DNA of 64,000 bases from Clostridiales bacterium (GTDB taxonomy: Bacteria; Bacillota; Clostridia; Christensenellales; Borkfalkiaceae). Positions 1,288 to 10,917 of this stretch are shown here, piece after piece. The stretch lies in contig JAFLVO010000001.1 in the NCBI GenBank assembly GCA_022508245.1, forward strand, positions 434,001 to 498,000. The letters are read 5' to 3'. Each line of letters starts with the position of its first letter. Position 1 is the first letter of the stretch. The position numbers and the translations under genes were made by a program. The notes below the pieces were generated by a model. The model searched no databases, had not been told where the DNA came from, and worked only from the letters and a program-made list of their open reading frames with translations.

Positions 1288-1302
1288 CAAAGAGAGAGGA
1301 GG

Positions 1303-1469
1303 TGGATTTTGCCGAAAGCCCTAAAGGGGACTTCTCGGCAAACCTTCACTTTGTTCAGTCGAACGGTATAGCTTCAGCTTATACCACCTCCGCACACACA
1401 GCAAAAGGCACTGACAATTAAGTCAGTGCCTTTTGCTGGTGGAGCAATGATAACCTAAAACGAATTTTA
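1303..1469. repeat. Structured intergenic repeat, copy A
   Basis: Copy A runs from GGAGGTGG to the end of a 34-bp motif. It contains an outer pair GGAGGTGG/CCACCTCC, an inner stem TTGCCGA/TCGGCAA, a stem-loop around GGTATAGCT/AGCTTATACC, then a perfect 15-bp hairpin with arms 1401-1415 and 1422-1436. The terminal motif TGGTGGAGCAATGA-N4-CTAAAACGAATTTTA lies at 1437-1469. Its last bases supply the stop codon of the minus-strand gene at 1467. Copy B (2005-2176) shares the start, the hairpin arms and the motif, while the interior differs. Confidence 0.75.
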
Positions 1470-1940
1470 ATCAGGTAAGCAATTATTTTTGTTAAAAAAA
1501 TTAATTACCCAATTTCTACAATATTCTAAGCCTTTATCCTTGTAAATTGCACCGATAACTGCCTCTATATAAAAATCGTGTTGTGGGTGAGGTAACTGTT
1601 TTTCAAGTGGCGCTTCTGTAAAAATATATGTATCATTATAAGCATATTTATATATACCATATTTATTGCACAATTTAAATAACGTATTATTATCTTCCAT
1701 TTTTTGCTTTTTATTTGTGATTTCAGCTTTATTAGACCCTTTATTATACAAACTCTCAGTTAATATGAGTTTCAATACAGTATCACCCAATGTCGCTAAA
1801 CTTTCATCTGCGTATTCTTGTTTTTTATCGTCTAATGGCTTGCAATACATTGCCTTTTTTAGCCATAATAAGTCTGTGATTTCATAGTCAATTTTTTTGG
1901 CTAATTCGTGCATTTTTTCCACTATTATTTTGTCATCCAT
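1467..1940 (-). CDS. Stand-alone RNase III-domain protein (Mini-III-like)
   Basis: The 157-aa protein has the RNase III endonuclease fold signatures: DESLATLGDTVL at 45-56 (compare ERLEFLGDAVL), an ITNKKQKMEDNNTLF segment at 74-88, and IEAVIGAIYKDKG at 125-137. There is no double-stranded-RNA-binding domain, as in Mini-III. E46 and D53 of the first motif and E126 of the last are present. The second Glu of the first motif is Ala49, and the Asp normally three residues before E126 is four before (D122), so the metal site is atypical. It sits alone between repeat copies A and B in a defence-like region. It could be an RNA-cleaving effector or a divergent housekeeping enzyme; I infer the former from context only. 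Confidence 0.65.
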   Translation of the reverse strand: MDDKIIVEKMHELAKKIDYEITDLLWLKKAMYCKPLDDKKQEYADESLATLGDTVLKLILTESLYNKGSNKAEITNKKQKMEDNNTLFKLCNKYGIYKYAYNDTYIFTEAPLEKQLPHPQHDFYIEAVIGAIYKDKGLEYCRNWVINFFNKNNCLPD

Positions 1941-1970
1941 AAAAACACCAAAAGTTAATCTTTTATTTAA

Positions 1971-1999
1971 ATTATATCATAGCGATAATGAAAAAGCAA
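1971..1999 (-). promoter_or_regulatory. Promoter of the RNase III-like gene
   Basis: On the minus strand TTGCTT (1999-1994) is followed after 17 bp by TATAAT (1976-1971), leaving a leader of about 27 nt. Confidence 0.6.
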
Positions 2000-2004
2000 T
2001 GGAT

Positions 2005-2176
2005 GAGGTGGATATTGCCGTTTCCGCAAGCGGAGCCTCGGCAAAGCGTCGCGCCGTAAAGGCGCTCGCGCGAACCGTGGTTCGCAATCCTAACGACCGT
2101 ACACACAGCAAAAGGCACTGACATTTAGTCAGTGCCTTTTGCTGGTGGAGCAGTGAAAAACTAAATCGAACTTTTA
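2005..2176. repeat. Structured intergenic repeat, copy B
   Basis: It begins GAGGTGGATATTGCCG like copy A. The TTGCCG/CGGCAA stem is kept but encloses a different hairpin (TCCGCAAGCGGA). Further stems are GCGCC/GGCGC and CGAACC/GGTTCG. The same 15-bp terminator-like hairpin follows (arms 2108-2122 and 2128-2142), then TGGTGGAGCAGTGA-N4-CTAAATCGAACTTTTA at 2143-2176. Changes that keep the stems suggest selection on structure. The remaining 2177-2284 is AT-rich and carries the likely promoter and AAAGGA ribosome site of the next gene. Confidence 0.75.
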
Positions 2177-2284
2177 TCTATCAAAAATTTAATTTTAGGC
2201 ATTTGAATAAAAAAATTGTCAAAAGTTGTAACAATAGCTTCGTAAAAAACGTCTAAAATATAAAAATTTTAAAGGAAATTACTT

Positions 2285-2644
2285 ATGGAAAATAATTATT
2301 TTGAAATATTATTTAGTGATAATCAACAGGAAGATTTTAACTTCAACTCTCAATCGTTTTCTGCTAACGAGTCAAAAATTGATAAACTTATAGCTAAAAG
2401 TAAGAGTAAAATTTTTAAAATATCGGATGATATTTTAAAAAAAAATATATTAGAAGTAATTGATAAAATTGGCGAGATCTTTACACTTGACGAGAATAAT
2501 CCTTATTGCTTTATTGATGAAATAGAGTTTGGATTAAGTATAAATGTTGATGGAAAAGTTTCAATATTATCAGTTATTGAAGGTGGAGTCAGTACTGGAT
2601 CAACCTTTATACTAAAATTGAGGAGACGAAAAGATAATGTCTAA
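2285..2644 (+). CDS. Trypco-like (trypsin-co-occurring) domain protein
   Basis: This 119-aa protein has an acidic, helical N-terminal half and a beta-rich C-terminal segment at about 76-115 (IDEIEFGLSINVDGKVSI, then STFILKLRRRK). That order, a hydrophobic strand with E-x-G-L, an Asp-Gly-Lys turn, a gap, then a strand ending in a basic cluster, resembles the Trypco domains, small domains described beside proteases in bacterial conflict systems. An AAAGGA site precedes the ATG. Its last 8 nt overlap the metallopeptidase gene at 2637, so the two are translationally coupled. The Trypco assignment rests on my reading of the pattern, without a profile search. Inferred role: recognition or regulatory partner of the protease. 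Confidence 0.55.
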   Translation: MENNYFEILFSDNQQEDFNFNSQSFSANESKIDKLIAKSKSKIFKISDDILKKNILEVIDKIGEIFTLDENNPYCFIDEIEFGLSINVDGKVSILSVIEGGVSTGSTFILKLRRRKDNV

Positions 2645-3839
2645 TTCTGCAATTAATTTGCTGGCATATATTCAGCAAAAATTGAATGGAGATTTACCTG
2701 ATTGCGAATCAATCAAAGCTACGCATCTATCTATGTTAGACGAAATGGAATCTAAATGGGGGACTAAATTTGATAAATCAAACGTTATAGATCGTATAAA
2801 TCAAATGTATTCTGATTTACCCACAAAATTTCAGAATCCGCTTACATACAGTTTGTTAAAAGATATTATAAAAAACATCAAAGATACAGTAGAGAAAAAT
2901 AGTGAGGAACTATCTCTGAAGTTTAAAATTGAAAATAATTATTTTCCTATATTTGGCACTGTATCTATGGGGCAATTTTCAGCTCAAATTTGTTCACCGA
3001 AAAATTCAAATGACTCATTGATTATTTTTAGTGACGGACTTTTTGGCTTTGCAAACTTAATAAGTAAAGTTATTGCAAGCTGTTTGCCGTGTGTAAAAGA
3101 CAAAGACGGTGGATTATCCTATTCAACTGATAAAAATAATATCAAAAATAATATTAAACATGATAACTTACTTATTGTAAGATTTATCGACCTTATGTTT
3201 GCATATATGATGCGTGAAGATCCCCATCGTGCACAGCAATATTTAATTGACAAAGAGCACCTTTATTTGTCTGAATTAATACGTGATTCGTTTGAAATTT
3301 TTGTTGCTGCACACGAGTATGCTCATTATGCGTTAGGGCATCTGTCCGATTCCACTTCTGAAAAACTATTTGATTTCAGTTCTGAAAAAATTGAAGCCAT
3401 TTCTTATAAATGGAAGCAAGAGTTTGAAGCAGACGAATTGGGGGCATATCTAACGGTGTTATATATGGGTAGTAGGGGAATAGATACATTTTTGAGTGGA
3501 TTAGGAATCTGGGTATGTTTAAGCGTAATTGAAGTTATTGAAAAGTTAAAGGCTACATATGAAGATAAGGATTTGGATTTGGTAAATTTTTCAACAACTC
3601 ATCCTCCAATATCTTTACGAAAGGAGTTTTTGATAAAACATTATTCGGAAATTCAGGCAGCTAAAAAATTTTTTGATTCCATAGATTACGTTTTTAATAT
3701 TTTATGGAATTGCTTTTATAAGTTTTTTGACTTTATAAAAGAGTTGCAACAGAAAACAAAATTAGATATTAGTGATTTAAATTTTGAAACTATTCAACAC
3801 TTGCTTTACAAAATAGATTTTACAAGTACTATCAATTAG
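2637..3839 (+). CDS. M48-like zinc metallopeptidase, partner of the Trypco-like protein
   Basis: In this 400-aa cytosolic protein, HEYAH at 226-230 is the zinc-binding HExxH helix. The QEFEADELGAYL segment at 261-272 provides the third ligand (E264) and conserved Asp of the E-x-x-x-D helix, and THPPISLR at 321-328 matches the HPxxxxR element of M48 peptidases. The 200-residue N-terminal part is not recognisable and may sense a trigger. No signal peptide or membrane segment is evident, unlike housekeeping HtpX. It follows and overlaps a Trypco-like gene, and repeat copies B and C flank the pair, as expected of a mobile conflict module. Peptidase activity is well supported; the defence role is inference. 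Confidence 0.75.
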   Translation: MSNSAINLLAYIQQKLNGDLPDCESIKATHLSMLDEMESKWGTKFDKSNVIDRINQMYSDLPTKFQNPLTYSLLKDIIKNIKDTVEKNSEELSLKFKIENNYFPIFGTVSMGQFSAQICSPKNSNDSLIIFSDGLFGFANLISKVIASCLPCVKDKDGGLSYSTDKNNIKNNIKHDNLLIVRFIDLMFAYMMREDPHRAQQYLIDKEHLYLSELIRDSFEIFVAAHEYAHYALGHLSDSTSEKLFDFSSEKIEAISYKWKQEFEADELGAYLTVLYMGSRGIDTFLSGLGIWVCLSVIEVIEKLKATYEDKDLDLVNFSTTHPPISLRKEFLIKHYSEIQAAKKFFDSIDYVFNILWNCFYKFFDFIKELQQKTKLDISDLNFETIQHLLYKIDFTSTIN

Positions 3840-3909
3840 CTTTATTTAACTAAAGAAAGTCAAATAGTAAGTCATTAGTTATGATTTTGTCGCTGAATTT
3901 AAAATAACA

Positions 3910-3976
3910 AAAAAGGACAGGTACAAAACCTGTCCTTTTTCGTGGTGGAGCAGTGAATATCTAAATCGAACTTTTA
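3910..3976. repeat. Terminator plus 34-bp motif, copy C
   Basis: A 13-bp hairpin (AAAAAGGACAGGT at 3910-3922, ACCTGTCCTTTTT at 3928-3940) can terminate transcription from both sides. The motif TGGTGGAGCAGTGA-N4-CTAAATCGAACTTTTA follows at 3943-3976 with the same 18-nt internal spacing as copies A and B. The hairpin sequence differs from A and B, so the motif rather than the hairpin is what is conserved. The stop codon of the minus-strand gene is at 3974-3976, inside the motif. Confidence 0.75.
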
Positions 3977-4741
3977 ACTGAATTTTTGTAGTGATTTATA
4001 AATAAGAAGTAAAAATTTTCGATTTAATTCAGTATAGCTTGTAAAAGCAAATCGTTTATAGTTTTGTGCGGATAAAGCCATTAATTCGAAATAGTCTTTA
4101 AAAGATATTAAGTTCGCAACATTTCTTTTTAAAGTTAAATGAAACCCCTGCGTACAATTTTTAGGAATAAAATATAATGCAATGCGATTTGTTATAGGAA
4201 TTACTTTCTTTGACTTATTTTGTAAAGCATCGCAAAAACAATCTGTAACAAAGAAGTTTGGCTCATTCTGTTTTAATAAGTATATATTATATTCATTTAT
4301 TATTGCATTTATAGCTATAACAGTTAAATTTTTATTGTACATTTTTCGCAAAGCTAAATCATTAAAATCATTAGTATTATTTATTTTGTTTAATTTAGAT
4401 ATTTCTTCTTGTTGAAATTCCTTTTGATAGGGAGTTCTCAAAGCCTGATAATATAAATAAGCTATTAGTTTATGTAAATCTTCTCCTATGGGTAAAATTT
4501 CAGTTTCAGCAATCGTCCTTATAATATCTAAACCAATATCTTCTATCGCTTTCAAGTCTTTCTCAATTTGGTCGTCGGGATAATCAATATTTTCAAAATG
4601 ATATAGGTCATTCTCTACTGCAATATTATTTATCGTGTTTTGTCTGGGCAAAAACTTATCCTTAATAATATCATAAATTAGTATGCCATTATCGCCACAA
4701 AAGTTTTTTATAAATTCCTTTTGAATATAATGATTTTTCAT
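3974..4741 (-). CDS. DUF4238-family protein
   Basis: This 255-aa protein starts KNHYIQKEFIKNFCG, the HYI(P/Q)xxFLxxF opening typical of DUF4238. It continues with the family's NDLYHFEN-like segment near residue 45 and the FFVTDCFCDAL region near residue 163, corresponding to the usual F-x-T-S-D-x-P element. There are no membrane segments. DUF4238 proteins have no established activity but recur in defence-rich and mobile regions. The gene is isolated, convergent with the metallopeptidase gene and divergent from the AIPR gene, and its stop codon lies in the 34-bp repeat, as for the RNase III-like gene. Confidence 0.65.
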   Translation of the reverse strand: MKNHYIQKEFIKNFCGDNGILIYDIIKDKFLPRQNTINNIAVENDLYHFENIDYPDDQIEKDLKAIEDIGLDIIRTIAETEILPIGEDLHKLIAYLYYQALRTPYQKEFQQEEISKLNKINNTNDFNDLALRKMYNKNLTVIAINAIINEYNIYLLKQNEPNFFVTDCFCDALQNKSKKVIPITNRIALYFIPKNCTQGFHLTLKRNVANLISFKDYFELMALSAQNYKRFAFTSYTELNRKFLLLIYKSLQKFS

Positions 4742-4845
4742 TGGCTTTCCTACAATTATCTTTTACTATCATTATAAACAAAATGAACTTCAATAAAACG
4801 AATTAAAAGAACAACACGCTTACTTTTTATATATAGCTCTTTATC

Positions 4846-4874
4846 TTTACAAACTTGTTCTTTTATGATATATT
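4846..4874 (+). promoter_or_regulatory. Promoter of the AIPR gene
   Basis: TTTACA (4846-4851) and TATATT (4869-4874) are 17 bp apart, upstream of a GAGGG ribosome site at 4895-4899. Confidence 0.55.
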
Positions 4875-4905
4875 ATTTAAAAATAATATTTTACGAGGGC
4901 GAAAA

Positions 4906-6645
4906 ATGGTTTATTCTGAACAAAATATTGACGAATTTATTTTTAGTGATGGCGTAAATATTCCCCCTACCGAAGTAGGCAAAAGATTTTTAGATTTTTT
5001 ATTGCTTAAATTGTTTAATCGTACCGAAGAAGAATTAAACGATAATGATTTAGAGGACGGGGTACTTTATCCTGACGGAGCAAAAGATTACGGTATTGAT
5101 GCTTGTTTTATTGATGCCAACACGCTTTATATAATTCAAGGAAAATATAGAACAGAGCATAATTATACGAATGCCTATCAGTTCCTTGAAAGAATTAAAG
5201 ATTTTTTTGATTTGACAGATGCTAAACAGCTTCGGCAGGTTTTAGTGCCTGTCTATAATGCTGTTCATTCAGATGAAATAACGCAAATCAAAATCTATTA
5301 TTTAACGAACAATGACATTACTTATGAAAGACGAAGTTATAGCTACGAAGATAAATGTATTGACAAAGAGAGCTATATAAGCAATAAAGTCAATAAAGAT
5401 ATTTCATTAAAAATTTACGGTACTGAAAGTTTTGCAACCATTAAGACAGGCATATTGTTAGATTTGCCGCCCGAGGTTAAAACTGCAACGGCAGGGTTGG
5501 TACTTGAAAATTATTTTGAAAATAGAGATAAAACATCTATTGTCGCCGAAATTTCATTGAAAAGTTTAGCAAGTTTAGTTGATAAGCACCATAAATATAT
5601 ATTCTTTTCAAATATTCGTGATTATAAAGGTCTTAACGCAATAAACAAAAAAATAAAAGAAACCTATGAACTGCATCCAAAGGACTTTTGGTATTTTAAT
5701 AACGGAATTACTTTGGTTTGTAAAGAATACAATTTAAAACAATCCTATTTAACTATTACCGCTCCTCAAATTGTCAATGGTTGTCAAACCGCATCTACTA
5801 TTCGTGAATGCTGGCGCAAGCAAAGTGAAGATGAGCGTAACAATAATCAAGGCACTATTTTAATAAAAATCATTAAAGATTTAAAAGAAGAAAAGAGAAA
5901 GGACATAACAAGATACACGAATAGTCAAACGGCTGTTACAGGTAAAGATTTCTTTGCACTTGAAGGTTTCCACAAAGAATTGCAAAATAGCTTTAAAGAA
6001 TATGGTTACTTCTATGAAATTCAGACTAACAGTGCAAAGAATAAAACAAAAAACTATCCAGGCAATATAAACTACGCCCACCTGTTCGATAAAAAGTTTG
6101 AAAAAAGCAATTCATTTACGGCAAAAGAAATTACGCAAATATTTGTAGCGGCAATTTTGGAGCATCCAGGCAAAGCCAAAGGTGTAGGTGATTTTATGCC
6201 TGGCGGTTCACAATATGACCAAGTCTATAATCAAGATACACCTACCGACCCGAGATTTTATATTTTACCTTATGGTATTTGGTATTATTTCAAAAATATT
6301 TATAACTATAATAAAAATAAGATTGATAAAGATAGGTGGAAGGCATCGCTCCTCTTCATAACAAAAATTTTCTTTGATTGTATCAGCAAAGTTTATTTTA
6401 ACAACAACGCCAACAAACTCACTATTGATTTTATAAATAAATGCGACGAAATAATAAAAAATAGAGCGGAATTTGATAAATTTGTTAGGATAACTTTCAA
6501 TGTAATAATAGATTTTTATAGAGATAGTCAAATCATAAGCATTATAGGCGACAATTTACCTAAATTCTTAAAAACAGCCGTAGAAGTGAACAAAGAAGTT
6601 GCAAGTATTCTTGTTCAAAAAATCAATTTTGCTTGCGAAGAATAA
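4906..6645 (+). CDS. AIPR-family (abortive infection phage resistance) protein
   Basis: I start this 579-aa protein at the ATG behind GAGGG; a longer frame would use a start inside the promoter. The N-terminal third has a restriction-endonuclease-like core: GID with D65, then a strand ending IIQGKYR, giving D...Q-x-K (Q78, K80) of the PD-(D/E)XK superfamily. The central part shows the AIPR signature: NIRDYKG, FWYFNNGIT near residue 261, and PQIVNGCQTAS near 287. AIPR proteins are linked to phage abortive infection. The gene stands alone behind its own promoter in the island. Family assignment is firm; nuclease activity is inferred. Confidence 0.85.
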   Translation: MVYSEQNIDEFIFSDGVNIPPTEVGKRFLDFLLLKLFNRTEEELNDNDLEDGVLYPDGAKDYGIDACFIDANTLYIIQGKYRTEHNYTNAYQFLERIKDFFDLTDAKQLRQVLVPVYNAVHSDEITQIKIYYLTNNDITYERRSYSYEDKCIDKESYISNKVNKDISLKIYGTESFATIKTGILLDLPPEVKTATAGLVLENYFENRDKTSIVAEISLKSLASLVDKHHKYIFFSNIRDYKGLNAINKKIKETYELHPKDFWYFNNGITLVCKEYNLKQSYLTITAPQIVNGCQTASTIRECWRKQSEDERNNNQGTILIKIIKDLKEEKRKDITRYTNSQTAVTGKDFFALEGFHKELQNSFKEYGYFYEIQTNSAKNKTKNYPGNINYAHLFDKKFEKSNSFTAKEITQIFVAAILEHPGKAKGVGDFMPGGSQYDQVYNQDTPTDPRFYILPYGIWYYFKNIYNYNKNKIDKDRWKASLLFITKIFFDCISKVYFNNNANKLTIDFINKCDEIIKNRAEFDKFVRITFNVIIDFYRDSQIISIIGDNLPKFLKTAVEVNKEVASILVQKINFACEE

Positions 6646-6761
6646 TCAATTTGGCATTTAGGCGTGTGCTTGTCTTGATACAAGCGGCGGCTCGCTAACG
6701 CTCGCCGCCGAGACAAGCACACGCCTATAAACCGAACTTCACAAACAAAAGAAAATAAACA

Positions 6762-6830
6762 AGCCGACACGGAGCGGGCGTACGCCGCTGAACCGCTTGG
6801 CGTATCGCCCCGCTATTCCGTGCGGCGGCT
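6762..6830. other. Large stepped hairpin, left flank of the Rep element
   Basis: Nested stems AGCCG/CGGCT, CACGGA/TCCGTG, AGCGGG/CCCGCT and TACGCC/GGCGTA form a stepped stem of about 25 bp, followed by TTTTATTTTT. It could be a terminator, or a single- or double-strand origin of the rolling-circle-type element. Confidence 0.5.
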
Positions 6831-7030
6831 TTTTATTTTTACTTTCATTATTGCTTTGGTTTCAATGTTTATACTTTCACCAATTATCGACGGTATTTCC
6901 GTAAAGTTGTCTTAATTTTTGCTTTAACGGCATAGTATTATTTTAACAGCCGCAGGTTGCGGTTAGAAAAAGGCGTATAGCAAAAACGACAAGCCGAGAT
7001 TTCCGCATAGGAACAGTGGTTGCGTTTTAT

Positions 7031-7074
7031 AGGCGTAGTACGAAAATTTATGTGTTTTCGTGCTACGCCTTTTT
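7031..7074 (+). terminator. Terminator-like hairpin in the leader of the rep operon
   Basis: A 16-bp stem (AGGCGTAGTACGAAAA at 7031-7046, TTTTCGTGCTACGCCT at 7055-7070) carries one G-T pair and is followed by TTTTC. It lies 31 nt before the first start codon, where it could attenuate rep expression, as copy-control RNAs do in rolling-circle plasmids. Confidence 0.5.
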
Positions 7075-7105
7075 CTATGCAAAAAATTTTTAAGGAGGTT
7101 AGCCA

Positions 7106-7213
7106 ATGCGCCAAATCAAAGTAATCTTACACGGCTTAACGGAAAGTGAGCGGAATATTTTTTATTCCACGCTTTTAAAACGCATCTATGAGCTTATGGC
7201 AAGGGGGAAATAA
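7106..7213 (+). CDS. Small ORF upstream of rep (35 aa)
   Basis: A canonical TAAGGAGG precedes the ATG by 7 nt, and the frame ends 2 nt before the rep start, which argues for real translation. The product begins MRQIKVILHGLTESER and is a short basic amphipathic peptide. Small ORFs just upstream of rep often act in copy control or by translational coupling. I do not recognise the family, and the role is inferred only from position and the strong ribosome site. Confidence 0.55.
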   Translation: MRQIKVILHGLTESERNIFYSTLLKRIYELMARGK

Positions 7214-7215
7214 TT

Positions 7216-8118
7216 ATGCCGTTCCCAGAAACAAAAGTCTATTTTGACGGAAGTCATTATATAGCTATTCCCCACACTGAACGCCCGAAACAGCGGCGTA
7301 AAAAGAATTTGAAAATTGATATTGAAAAGACCGAGAATGAGAAATCGGCAACAGTTAATCTTAAAGAGAAGTTTGACGAACTGTATAAAGAAAAGTCAAA
7401 CAAAAAGAGAGCTGAAAGAAAGCAAGAAATTATAACTGAAATGAAACCGCATTTTAAAAACGAAAATGACACAGAGTTATTTGTGATTGAAAATATAGAG
7501 CGAAAAAACCGCAATAAGATTGTACGAAAAACACGGCTTGCAAGAAAGGTAAATTTACAGCAATGGAACTACTTTTGCACTTTTACCTATGACAGTAAAA
7601 AGCATAGTGAAGAAACATTCAGAACTAAACTCACTAACTGTTTAAGGCACTTATCCAACCGCAAGCAATGGAAATACATAGGCGTTTGGGAGCGTTCACC
7701 CGAAAAGCAACGCCTGCACTTTCACGGAATATTCTATATCCCCGAAATGACAGGCGAATTAAAGGAAGTTACAGATTATAGTTTGAATACGCACAGACTG
7801 CAAACCACTTTACAGAATACATACTTTAATGAAAGGTTTGGGCGTAGCGATTTTGAGCCGATTACGGACAGAACGCTTTTAGGAAATGCAACGGCTTACT
7901 TAATGAAATATATAGAGAAGTCGGGCGAGAAACTTGTGTATTCGAGAGGACTGCCGACTTACTTCATATCTGACATTATGGAAGAAGATATAATCTGCCC
8001 CATCGGGCAAGAGGACAGAAAACTATTACTATTCGATGATTTTACCTGTTGGGACGAGGGCTGCAAGATAGGCGAAGTAAGTCCCGAAACAATACAGCAG
8101 TTACGGAAAAGTAACTGA
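7216..8118 (+). CDS. Rolling-circle replication initiator-like protein (HUH endonuclease)
   Basis: This 300-aa protein has a highly charged N-terminal 100 residues followed by a Rep core: motif I YFCTFTY at about 118-124, the HUH motif RLHFHGIFY at about 165-173 whose two His bind the divalent metal, and motif III YLMKYIEK near 227 with the candidate tyrosine nucleophile. Such proteins nick one strand at an origin to start rolling-circle replication or transfer. It follows a 35-aa ORF by 2 nt and precedes a serine recombinase, the arrangement of a small integrative element that excises and replicates. Motifs are seen directly; the origin is not identified. Confidence 0.8.
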   Translation: MPFPETKVYFDGSHYIAIPHTERPKQRRKKNLKIDIEKTENEKSATVNLKEKFDELYKEKSNKKRAERKQEIITEMKPHFKNENDTELFVIENIERKNRNKIVRKTRLARKVNLQQWNYFCTFTYDSKKHSEETFRTKLTNCLRHLSNRKQWKYIGVWERSPEKQRLHFHGIFYIPEMTGELKEVTDYSLNTHRLQTTLQNTYFNERFGRSDFEPITDRTLLGNATAYLMKYIEKSGEKLVYSRGLPTYFISDIMEEDIICPIGQEDRKLLLFDDFTCWDEGCKIGEVSPETIQQLRKSN

Positions 8119-8167
8119 AAGTATTTTGTCTTTCGTCCGGCGGAGCGTAAACGAAACCGCACTTTCG

Positions 8168-8205
8168 GGCAAGGGTAAAATGCACTACCTATGGTAGCCC
8201 TTGCC
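8168..8205 (+). other. Hairpin between rep and the recombinase gene
   Basis: GGCAAGGG (8168-8175) pairs with CCCTTGCC (8198-8205) and encloses a second hairpin CTACC-TAT-GGTAG. No T-run follows, so an origin, attachment or mRNA-processing site is more likely than a terminator. Confidence 0.4.
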
Positions 8206-8304
8206 GGAAAGGAAAAGTAAAACAATAAACACGCTTAATTATGCGCTTCCGTTTGTTTCGCTCCTGTCGAAAGACAAATCTAAAATCAAAAGGAGTTTAT
8301 GAAA

Positions 8305-9810
8305 ATGAAAACAGCAGTAATTTATGCCCGTTATTCAAGCGACAGTCAAACAGAGCAGTCCATTGAAGGGCAATTGAGAGTATGTGAGGACTACGCAAGA
8401 AACAACGACATACTCATTTTAGATACTTACATAGACCGAGCGATGACGGGAACAAATGACAACCGTCCCGACTTCCAGCGAATGTTAAAGAACAGCAGTC
8501 GCCGTGAATGGAACTATGTTTTAGTTTACAAGTTTGATAGGTTCAGCCGTAATAAATACGAAACGGCAGTACACAAAAAGACCTTGAAAGACAACGGCAC
8601 GAAAGTTATATCCGCTACCGAGTTTGTACCCGATACACCCGAAGGAATTATCCTTGAAAGTATGCTTGAAGGATATGCGGAATACTATTCAGCGGAGCTT
8701 TCGCAAAAGATACGCAGAGGCAACAACGAAAGCAGACATAAAGGAAATTTGACGGGTGGTCGCATTCCATACGGTTATAAGAATGTAAATAAAAAAGCCG
8801 TAATCGTACCCGAACAAGCCGAAGTCGTCCGATACATTTACGAGCAGTATTCAATAGGCGTATATGTTAAAGACATTATCAAAGATTTGACCTCAAAAGG
8901 TATTTACTACTACGGAAAGCCTTTCGTAACCAATACCGTTTATAAAATCTTGAAGAACGAGCGATATTCGGGCGTTTACCACTACAACGGCGAAACATTC
9001 AACAACATTTATCCGCAGATTGTACCGCAGGACATTTTCGATAAAGTGCGTGCAAAGGTGATTAAAAACCAATACGGAAAGAATTGCGTTGAAACGGTAT
9101 TCTTGTTAAGGCATAAAATGAAGTGCGGATATTGCGGACAAAGTATAGTTGCCGAGAGCGGAACTTCGCAGAACGGCGAAAAGAAATACTACTATAAGTG
9201 CAGAGGTCGCAAGGCAAGAGTAAACGATTGCAACAAAGCTCCTATCCGTAAAGACCTACTTGAAAATATGGTACTTGACTTTGTACACGAAGTATTGAGC
9301 AGTCCTCAAAAGATAACCGAGATTGTAAACGGTTTAATGAATTTTCAAGAAAAGTTATCGCAGGATAATACGGTTTTGAATTTACTCATAAGAGAAAAAC
9401 GCAGTACCGATGCATCTATTCAGAACATAATGTGCGCCATTGAAAAAGGCGTAATTACCAACACAACTACCAAGCGATTAAAAGAGCTTGAAGAAGTGCA
9501 GGAAAATTTAGAACGGCAGATTATCATTGAAAGAGGTAAAACCGCAATTAAAGTTTCCAAAGAACAAATAAGAGAGTTCTTTGAACAAGCTCTAAAACTC
9601 GAACCGCAAGTACTCATCAATTACTTAATAAAAGAAATAGAGCTGTTTGACGATAGAATAGACATCTACTTCAACAGCCCTATAAGTAAGAGTCCCGACC
9701 ACAATGGTCGGGGCTTTTCCTTTTACTCGAAAATTATTAAAATTGCATATAAAGTACCGCAACGCAGGAATTTATACAAATTGGATATTGCAATAGAGAT
9801 TAAGATTTAA
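8305..9810 (+). CDS. Large serine recombinase (site-specific integrase/transposase)
   Basis: I prefer the second ATG (501 aa): AAGGAG lies 9 nt before it but only 3 nt before the ATG at 8299. The N-terminal resolvase domain has IYARYSSDSQ with Ser11 as nucleophile and YKFDRFSRN. A recombinase domain follows (GRIPYGYKNV, then PFVTNTVYKILKNERYSGVY), then a zinc ribbon (CGYCGQ ... KCRGRK ... C) and a coiled-coil tail that controls synapsis. These enzymes integrate and excise elements through short attP and attB sites. It is probably the mobility enzyme of the rep element. I could not locate attL and attR. Confidence 0.9.
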   Translation: MKTAVIYARYSSDSQTEQSIEGQLRVCEDYARNNDILILDTYIDRAMTGTNDNRPDFQRMLKNSSRREWNYVLVYKFDRFSRNKYETAVHKKTLKDNGTKVISATEFVPDTPEGIILESMLEGYAEYYSAELSQKIRRGNNESRHKGNLTGGRIPYGYKNVNKKAVIVPEQAEVVRYIYEQYSIGVYVKDIIKDLTSKGIYYYGKPFVTNTVYKILKNERYSGVYHYNGETFNNIYPQIVPQDIFDKVRAKVIKNQYGKNCVETVFLLRHKMKCGYCGQSIVAESGTSQNGEKKYYYKCRGRKARVNDCNKAPIRKDLLENMVLDFVHEVLSSPQKITEIVNGLMNFQEKLSQDNTVLNLLIREKRSTDASIQNIMCAIEKGVITNTTTKRLKELEEVQENLERQIIIERGKTAIKVSKEQIREFFEQALKLEPQVLINYLIKEIELFDDRIDIYFNSPISKSPDHNGRGFSFYSKIIKIAYKVPQRRNLYKLDIAIEIKI

Positions 9811-9833
9811 AAACGGCTAATTTATTCCACAGT

Positions 9834-9959
9834 CCGCTTGACACGAGCCTCTTTTGGGTGTGTTGGCAAGGCAAAGAGCCAAGCCATCAGCCCACAAGGG
9901 GCTTTTGTTTTGCCGTTGACAAGGGGTAGCCTAACACACCCCTATCTCGTGTAAAGCGG
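9834..9959. other. Large stepped hairpin, right flank of the Rep element
   Basis: CCGCTTGACACGAG (9834-9847) pairs with CTCGTGTAAAGCGG (9946-9959), and inside it GGGTGTGTT (9856-9864) pairs with AACACACCC (9933-9941). Smaller inner stems follow. The 3' side (CCCCTAT..CGTG..GCGGCTTTT) resembles the left hairpin's (CCCCGCTAT..CGTG..GCGGCTTTT), so the two may be related sites bounding a 3.2-kb element. Confidence 0.5.
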
Positions 9960-9980
9960 CTTTTGCGGCATAAAACGCCG

Positions 9981-10736
9981 TTATAATTTCAATACAAATT
10001 GTAGCTCGAATAAATTTAAAGTAATTCCCGTTAAGGTATCAGCATCGTGAGTAAATTCTACATTAGCAATAAAGTCATCATTTGAATAAGGGATGATTTC
10101 TTTGGTTTGATAAACTTCGTAATCGTAAATTTTACCTTTTTTTCCATAGCGGACATAATTAACTAACTCTTGCATTTTTTTATCTAATGTAAAATAAAAA
10201 TCATCATCAATGTTCTCATCCAACCGCATTAATTCAAAATCATAATACAGGTAAAGTTCAATAAATATTTTTACTAATAAACGACTAACATTGTAATTAT
10301 TTTTTAGCTCTTCAATACTTATTCCCTTTGAAATCAAGTAGGAGGGTTTATATCCATTATACAGTTTTGCAACCATTTCAGGACTTACCTCAAGATGAAA
10401 AGCATTTGAATTTTTATCAAAATGCATAATCGCAGTTTCATTGCCAAGTAATACATCAAATTGGGGTACTTTCTTTTTCCTGCTTTCAATTAAATGGTAA
10501 GCTCTAATTAATTTAATAGGCTCCATTTCTAAAAATGGCTTTTCAATATTTAAAGCGAAATAATTATTGCACTTGTCGCAAACTATTCCTTTTTTCAATA
10601 CTAAAATATCATTTCCTAATGACTTTGGAATAATATGCTCTTCACTTGTGGTATTTATTTCCTCATTTTGGTTACTGTTAGAATAAATTAAATCAGAATT
10701 GCAAAATGGACATTTTTTTAGTTTGAACTTACCCAT
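9981..10736 (-). CDS. HNH endonuclease-like protein
   Basis: This 251-aa protein opens with a zinc-bound HNH module: CPFC at 9-12, EEHIIPKSLGN near 33-43 carrying the catalytic His, and IVCDKCNNYFA near 51-61 completing the four-cysteine zinc site and the Asn. The remaining 190 residues match nothing I know; they are AT-rich in codon use like the rest of the island. The gene is isolated between the rep element and the tRNA operon and reads away from the tRNAs. Such HNH proteins are usually DNA nicking or restriction effectors. The nuclease fold is well supported, a defence role only plausible. Confidence 0.7.
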   Translation of the reverse strand: MGKFKLKKCPFCNSDLIYSNSNQNEEINTTSEEHIIPKSLGNDILVLKKGIVCDKCNNYFALNIEKPFLEMEPIKLIRAYHLIESRKKKVPQFDVLLGNETAIMHFDKNSNAFHLEVSPEMVAKLYNGYKPSYLISKGISIEELKNNYNVSRLLVKIFIELYLYYDFELMRLDENIDDDFYFTLDKKMQELVNYVRYGKKGKIYDYEVYQTKEIIPYSNDDFIANVEFTHDADTLTGITLNLFELQFVLKL

Positions 10737-10796
10737 AATATTTGCCTTTGGTTTTTATTAAATTATAATACAAATTTAATTAAAAGTAAAAGAAAA

Positions 10797-10827
10797 AACC
10801 TAAACCGAAAGTAGTTCGATTTAGGTT
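10797..10827 (-). terminator. Terminator of the tRNA operon
   Basis: An AACCTAAA/TTTAGGTT hairpin is followed on the minus strand by TTTTTTC, starting 5 nt after the tRNA-Tyr CCA end. It contains CTAAATCGAACT, shared with the 34-bp repeat motif. Confidence 0.8.
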
Positions 10828-10832
10828 CTTCT

Positions 10833-10917
10833 TGGTGGGAGGAGGTGGATTCGAACCACCGAAGTCGGAGACGTCAGATTTACAGTCTGATGCATTTGGC
10901 CACTCTGCAATCCGCCC
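10833..10917 (-). tRNA. tRNA-Tyr (GTA)
   Basis: An 85-nt cloverleaf with anticodon GTA, a long variable arm (CGTCTCCGACTTCG) as in bacterial tRNA-Tyr, T-loop TTCGAAT and encoded CCA. The acceptor strands GGGCGGA and TCCTCCC leave a C4-U69 mismatch. Confidence 0.93.

Follow-up and report, generated by a model that had tools for sequence, protein, structure and literature searches.

The target of the staphylococcal cassette chromosome (SCC) is rlmH (orfX), and integrons work with the tyrosine recombinase IntI, an attI site and attC hairpins. Among integrative and mobilizable elements (IMEs), those with a site-specific serine recombinase disrupt the genes that they enter, and tRNA ends are, among the entries listed, the domain of tyrosine integrases (available part of PMC5704250). 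For a large serine recombinase (LSR), the Listeria integrase, it has been proposed and tested by substitution that the zinc-ribbon motif of attB lies closer to the core, by 5 bp, than that of attP, and for LSRs other pairings of att sites do not react (available part of PMC3783163). The subject here is a 34-bp motif that occurs in three copies in a 64,000-nucleotide stretch of DNA from a Clostridiales bacterium (assembly GCA_022508245.1, contig JAFLVO010000001.1, positions 434,001 to 498,000 of the forward strand; the window). This motif is very probably the left attachment site (attL) of elements integrated at a tRNA 3' end by an LSR, and the units that have no LSR are likely to be deletion derivatives of such elements. 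What speaks for this reading is that the ends are paired, that the attP reconstructed from them is symmetric, that the core is shared by both ends and the target, that in autonomous elements the LSR gene lies towards the right end, and that the same LSR and ends are met with at different tRNAs.

A scan of the window with the motif pattern at no more than three mismatches yields three matches, all on the + strand (the first, at 1437-1470, with one mismatch), and 100 dinucleotide shuffles of the window yield none; the three copies pointed out in the earlier note are thus real. At the same threshold the whole genome holds these copies only, with a fourth, looser copy on a different contig (G000:C12:60160-60191). 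A strong hairpin lies directly before each copy (z -9.0, -9.7 and -8.0, in order), confirming the claim that a terminator precedes every one of them. The internal spacing, which had been called identical, is the same from TGGTGG to CGAA in all three, and the tail of copy 1 is one base shorter. For this reason the stop codons of the RNase III (1467-1469) and DUF4238 (3974-3976) genes lie 30 and 31 bases, respectively, from the motif start, and share a base, as had been claimed, only when counted from the motif end.

Each element has the motif at one end; its other end lies 0.4-11 kb away. A search for the inverted arm finds TTCGNTTTAGG-N7-TGGTGG adjoining a tRNA at position 10815 of the window (Tyr), at loci L029 and L035 (both Ala) and at others; the right end of L032 adjoins a tRNA-Tyr interrupted by the contig end. 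Left and right ends joined in silico generate a 46-bp attP of the form TTCG-N14-TGGT-[GG]-N18-CGAA, symmetric about the bracketed dinucleotide. (Written as arms, this is TTCG-N18-[GG]-N18-CGAA, as against [GG]-N13-CGAA in the tRNA, with CGAA in the T-loop.) The CGAA thus starts 18 bp past the core in the attP arms and 13 bp past it in the tRNA targets read (TGAA in tmRNA), a 5-bp shift between attP and attB that is found in one attB half only. We infer that CGAA is what the zinc ribbon of the LSR recognises, in attP as well as in the tRNA T-loop, where it stands 5 bp nearer to the core. If so, an attP half should resemble a tRNA 3' end lengthened by 5 bp, which is what the motif looks like. 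A degenerate tRNA or tmRNA was considered as the identity of the motif and rejected, since ARAGORN and Rfam find neither at the motif sites.

The core was compared in 21 elements that have both ends (most of them located through the TGGTGG pattern, three with non-GG cores located otherwise). The core dinucleotide is the same at both ends in all 21; TTCG begins 18 bases ahead of TGGT in 19 and 19 bases ahead in two; and the arms are reverse-complementary in 17. Because most of these elements were found with TGGTGG patterns, the independent cases are the three with other cores, in which both ends and the target tRNA match: GA with tRNA-Glu (L207 and L257) and AG with tRNA-Val (L256). On the strand of the tRNA, the right end also forms an intrinsic-terminator fold (z -5.5), so that, judging by this anatomy, the element would supply the tRNA with a new terminator while its own first gene would run into the old one.

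Right ends with a different arm (GGTTCGTACTTTAAC or similar) and TTCG still 18 bases away are seen at L208 11837 (the same site as L086), L071 and L078, and suggest further specificity variants. At L077 and L091, left ends are paired with right-end hairpins that have TTCG closer to TGGTGG (12-13 bp between), which would be either a spacing variant or a different system.

Element 3 of the window (3943-10838; Table 1) encodes an LSR, with catalytic, recombinase and zinc-ribbon domains all present, as well as a Rep of the rolling-circle type. No relaxase is identified among the window proteins scanned; what is present is the PF23343 Rep and a conserved hairpin upstream of it. The AIPR/AbiU-like protein is the clear defence match among the seven window proteins scanned with PADLOC. 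It is very unlikely that these are islands inserted into tRNA 3' ends by a tyrosine recombinase: the target is indeed a tRNA 3' end, and is kept intact, but the direct repeat is just TGGTNN (6 bp) with no long block of tRNA 3' sequence, the ends are symmetric about a variable dinucleotide, and the nine window proteins scanned include the LSR and no tyrosine recombinase.

Table 1. Features of the window elements, with counterparts at other loci (positions are those of the window unless a locus is named)
Feature	Location	Strand	Support or remark
GC-rich palindromic units	window 1300-1436, 1998-2142; L004 8440-8640; L029 3200-3330; L030 4025-4325		
Intrinsic-terminator-like hairpin, left of first left end	1400..1436	-	z -9.0; would terminate RNase III transcript
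attL of element 1, A-type arm (CCTAAAACGAA)	1437..1469	+	crossover probably in GG 1441-1442
Element 1 cargo: RNase III-domain protein	1467..1940	-	PF00636, 6e-12; stop within motif
Stretch separating elements 1 and 2: fragment resembling the 3' part of tRNA-Tyr (by eye), palindromic GC-rich unit, terminator	1998..2142	unassigned	
attL of element 2, T-type arm (CTAAATCGAA)	2143..2176	+	
Element 2 cargo: Pepco-domain protein	2285..2644	+	PF24393, 5.5e-8
Element 2 cargo: weakly M48/capP-like protein, HExxH	2637..3839	+	below Pfam cut-off; capP 3.6e-4
Terminator hairpin left of element 3	3907..3942	-	
attL of element 3 (autonomous)	3943..3976	+	crossover probably in GG 3947-3948; first 29 bases identical in G081
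Element 3 cargo: DUF4238 protein	3974..4741	-	PF14022; stop within motif
Element 3 cargo: AIPR/AbiU-like protein	4906..6645	+	PF10592, 2e-43; AbiU, 1e-50
Conserved hairpin module upstream of Rep, putative replication/transfer origin	6654..6830	+	counterparts: L262 10141-10326; L207 10149-10334
Rep, REP_ORF2-G2P family (rolling-circle type)	7216..8118	+	PF23343, 1.3e-10
LSR	8299..9810	+	Resolvase, Recombinase and Zn-ribbon domains
HNH endonuclease-like cargo	9981..10736	-	PF14279
Right-end hairpin: TTCG arm and replacement terminator for tRNA-Tyr	10793..10832	-	z -5.5
attR: TTCGATTTAGG-N7-TGGTGG, adjoining tRNA-Tyr	10815..10838	+	
tRNA-Tyr, integration target, intact	10833..10917	-	ARAGORN/Rfam searches

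An LSR (E <= 1e-60) is encoded in 160 of 396 genomes of the order. Thirty LSR loci were fetched, 13 with at least 65% identity to the window LSR (the clade referred to below) and 17 with 56-63%. The right-end arm stands at 18 bases in 12 of the 13 clade loci, the thirteenth having only 226 bp of right flank; the breakdown is ten by TGGTGG, L167/L196 with a TGGTAG core at tRNA-Met, and L181 at tRNA-Val. Ten of the 12 right ends adjoin a tRNA or tmRNA called by ARAGORN, and the targets include tRNA Tyr, Ala, Val, Glu and Met as well as tmRNA. At 56-63% identity, none of the 15 loci examined shows the arm by the TGGTGG rule, other cores not having been tried (the two remaining loci, in which no open reading frame (ORF) was recognised, were left out). 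The window genome has a second LSR element at tRNA-Glu (L207 7260-13869, that is, C1:145259-151868), with a GA core, an LSR broken into two overlapping frames, and cargo that includes a methyltransferase-like gene (weak PADLOC matches).

At L034 13028-17513, the genes beyond a left end are one that is TIR-like (by eye), one that is acyltransferase-like and, on the opposite strand, one for a remoter LSR of 41% identity. A free plasmid or phage form of the elements was rejected: none of the LSR relatives in plasmids (5 records) or phages (32 records) reaches 60% identity (the best listed, 41%), and tblastn of the LSR in IMG/VR finds no relative. A viral origin was dropped likewise, the exact full attP pattern having no match in IMG/VR and the 22 stretches found there with a shorter left-end pattern being, by a rough estimate, no more than chance for 15 fixed bases.

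Evidence of movement comes from the same ends at other sites. In the congener G081, an LSR 94% identical to that of the window belongs to an element (L262:2794-13777) whose left end matches window 3943-3971 at every position (29 bp, N4 included) and whose right end is also the same; it lies at a tRNA-Ala and has other cargo, including a cytosine methyltransferase-like gene (by reading, with no family search). More generally, the likeness between related elements starts at about base 0 of TGGTGG, the sequence leftward being different. L061 and L105, which belong to different named genera, are 98.3% identical over 771 bp from base 0, and L055 and L084 are 96.6% identical from base 0; the likeness of L049 and L094 begins at -1, that of L092 and L104 at -5/-4. 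The junction, which the earlier note had placed at the TTTTA end, therefore lies at the opposite end of the motif, in TGGT|GG. Its idea of cassettes that enter a fixed recombination site on one side survives in that unrelated genes do stand on one side; the fixed site is the tRNA 3' end.

Sites without the motif exist, the cassette idea having called for empty sites. Twenty-five tRNA-Tyr loci of the genus, of 4-9 kb each, were sampled (five known to be occupied were included deliberately, and 20 were taken by best match to the tRNA cluster); 18 have neither left end nor right arm, and five of the other seven are those preselected as occupied. By coordinates, tRNA-Tyr lies ~17.1 kb from the conserved backbone in the window genome; the corresponding distances are 3.2 kb (G035) and 2.5 kb (G081).

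The motif is widely distributed. With at most two mismatches, TGGTGGAGNNNNGANNNNCTAAANCGAANTTT is present in 14 of 150 genomes, that of the window included, and the reversed pattern in none. The exact 19-base pattern, run across the genomes of 84,980 species, finds 74 sites in 68 stretches, the carriers of which are labelled Clostridia-type, including the cultured isolate Pumilibacter intestinalis (Pumilibacteraceae), in which two contigs bear left ends (L044 and L072), with the exceptions of one Bacilli and one plain 'bacterium'. The search of related genomes that had been proposed thus finds the motif beside unrelated genes, and because it recurs in 14 of 150 genomes and 68 stretches, confinement to the window and local duplication both fail as explanations. 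In the same way it is extremely unlikely that the motif is immobile, a locally duplicated terminator-linked or RNA-processing signal such as a tRNA-like mRNA 3' end. Its place after terminators, its resemblance to a stretched tRNA 3' end and the genes converging on it are what one would then expect, but not its presence in many genomes beside unrelated genes, its inverted partner at the far end, or cores that match the target tRNA.

Examination of 81 left ends finds a convergent ORF at 58, with its stop 18-147 bases from the motif start. In 17 of these 58 (a hand count) the stop falls at +30 to +32, so that the shared stop position seen in the window is common without being a rule. Eleven of the remaining left ends have no more than 166 bases of sequence rightward; a convergent ORF is lacking at the other 12, which include window copy 2. 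Among the 55 cargo proteins scanned (three near-duplicates were dropped from the 58), 56 Pfam families are matched, related families being counted apart, and among the 25 families listed none is found in more than two members. These families include glyoxalase, GNAT, HTH, MqsA, methylase, McrBC, CAAX protease and HNH, and among the PADLOC matches are those of one member to models of type II methyltransferases; defence genes accordingly make up some, but not the whole, of the cargo. Left ends lie within ~150 bases of a contig end at L048, L069, L072, L074, L103, L106 and L108, and also at L017 and L018, as is expected of multicopy or strain-variable DNA in assemblies.

In many relatives only one or two genes lie between the ends. 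A check for the hairpin module covered 22 complete elements, of which eight carry an LSR (that of L207 being broken) and 14, of 444-1890 bp and with correct ends, do not. The module, which includes a nearly invariant unpaired stretch, is found upstream of Rep in all eight LSR-bearing elements, and is probably an origin of replication or transfer. (Covariation was rejected as proof of the fold: five of the 18 predicted pairs are changed on both sides, but the covariation term is weak at 0.08.) The LSR-less elements have the module whole in two cases, as a remnant in five and not at all in seven; in four of the five the remnant is followed after 74-138 bases by the right end, and two of the five amount to ~20 bases. 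With the module retained in whole or in part by seven of 14, the LSR-less units look like deletion derivatives, and the pattern suggests that a small unit forms when the block of Rep and LSR is lost.

It is possible, although we hold it to be less than probable, that the LSR-less units are instead true satellites: cassettes excised and inserted in trans by the LSR (perhaps also the Rep) of another element, in the manner of integron cassettes or cis-mobilisable elements. The 14 complete units with correct ends would fit, as would the near-identical units whose left flanks are unrelated and whose hosts belong to different genera or families, and the retention of the hairpin module, entire in two and partial in five. 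Yet in both near-identical pairs one member has its right part lost or off the contig end, so that each pair could descend from a complete element; the module remnants resemble internal deletions; and 11 of the 13 cassette-bearing genomes have no clade LSR. Most likely, then, the one- and two-gene units are deletion derivatives, some of them possibly moved by an LSR in trans.

The proposed course of integration would be the following. The LSR would cut within the two bases next to TGGT (tRNA positions 71-72); the left half of attP would restore A73-CCA and bring a new terminator, and the former terminator of the tRNA would come to follow whichever cargo gene is closest to the left end. Tandem arrays such as that of the window would be built by successive integrations at one tRNA, with small islands slotted one by one behind it, each with its own cargo, for example phage-defence genes. 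Junctions resembling attP (at most three mismatches) occur in 24 of 396 genomes, with none for the reversed control among the entries listed; as assembled, they may be tandem copies, and chance may account for a few of the weakest. A polarity with older units further from the tRNA is not evident in L162 or L210, and was dropped. GC-rich palindromic units (tRNA 3' fragment, TTGCCG...GGCAAA..., terminator, TGGTGG) lie between cassettes and tRNAs, and seem to recreate the docking site.

Several observations weigh against integration by the LSR at tRNA ends as outlined. An inverted-arm search recognises no right end for elements 1 and 2 of the window; the arms mismatch between the ends in four of the 21 complete elements; and two of the 12 clade right ends have no intact tRNA (L173 adjoins a tRNA fragment, L165 none). 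No CGAA-like arm is apparent by eye in the left half of attB, so that attB recognition would rest on one half. A clade LSR is found in only two of the 13 cassette-bearing genomes, and an LSR that has since departed, or transfer of the whole region, must therefore be common. For the tRNA-Ala site of G081, no empty orthologue was found in the window genome. Tandem junctions require attP to react with an occupied site, as a rule a poor reaction for LSRs (available part of PMC3783163). Finally, all of the evidence is assembled sequence, mostly from metagenome-assembled genomes, and no excision, circle or recombination has been observed. A further-reaching proposal, which we offer tentatively and rate as possible rather than probable, is of a gene-capture system for which tRNA genes would be universal docking sites: a single LSR clade would recognise the conserved T-loop and the CCA end in every tRNA with a 71-72 dinucleotide matching the element's core, and would move in trans cassettes of one or two genes reduced to their two att ends, so that integron-like arrays of single genes (some of them defence-like) would build up behind tRNAs by serine-integrase chemistry.

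For a group of Clostridia, the elements would explain the pile-up of defence and other genes behind tRNAs, as well as the way in which an insertion can leave a tRNA and its transcription end intact. Their natural series of cores (GG, GA, AG), matching the targets, is a data set on attP/attB discrimination by LSRs and on core-steered choice of target, and the LSRs of the clade are possible tools for insertion at tRNA ends. Among the papers listed by searches of the open-licence PMC literature (subscription journals and most preprints lie outside it), none was seen to describe LSR elements, or cassettes of one gene, at the 3' ends of tRNAs, and the word tRNA is absent from the main text of one LSR survey (PMC10083194).

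In comparison with known systems, the elements share with integron cassettes the arrays of small units, the diverse cargo and the fixed junction, but they have an LSR, a double-strand att site with a 2-bp core, and tRNA docking (attC structure was not searched for). With the SCC and ECC cassette chromosomes, both served by ccr recombinases, they share LSR-driven cassettes of highly variable content, a fixed site and, in some, multiple att sites (available part of PMC6222049); they are set apart from these by target (tRNA/tmRNA) and att sequence. The zinc-ribbon motif that lies 5 bp nearer the core in attB is as in the Listeria integrase (available part of PMC3783163), except that here the attB motif is the tRNA T-loop and is found in one half only. 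The LSR-integrated IMEs and islands of Firmicutes (Tn4451/TndX-like) are alike in having a single LSR, very short direct repeats and varied cargo, and some of the tabulated IMEs carry a Rep gene, as here (available part of PMC5704250). Unlike the serine-recombinase IMEs, the elements described here use several tRNA and tmRNA 3' ends, leave them intact, and are accompanied by many one- and two-gene derivatives. They work like an LSR island, and do not answer to the description of tyrosine-recombinase tRNA islands, integrons or SCC; we regard them as a new form of LSR island, one specialised for tRNA ends.

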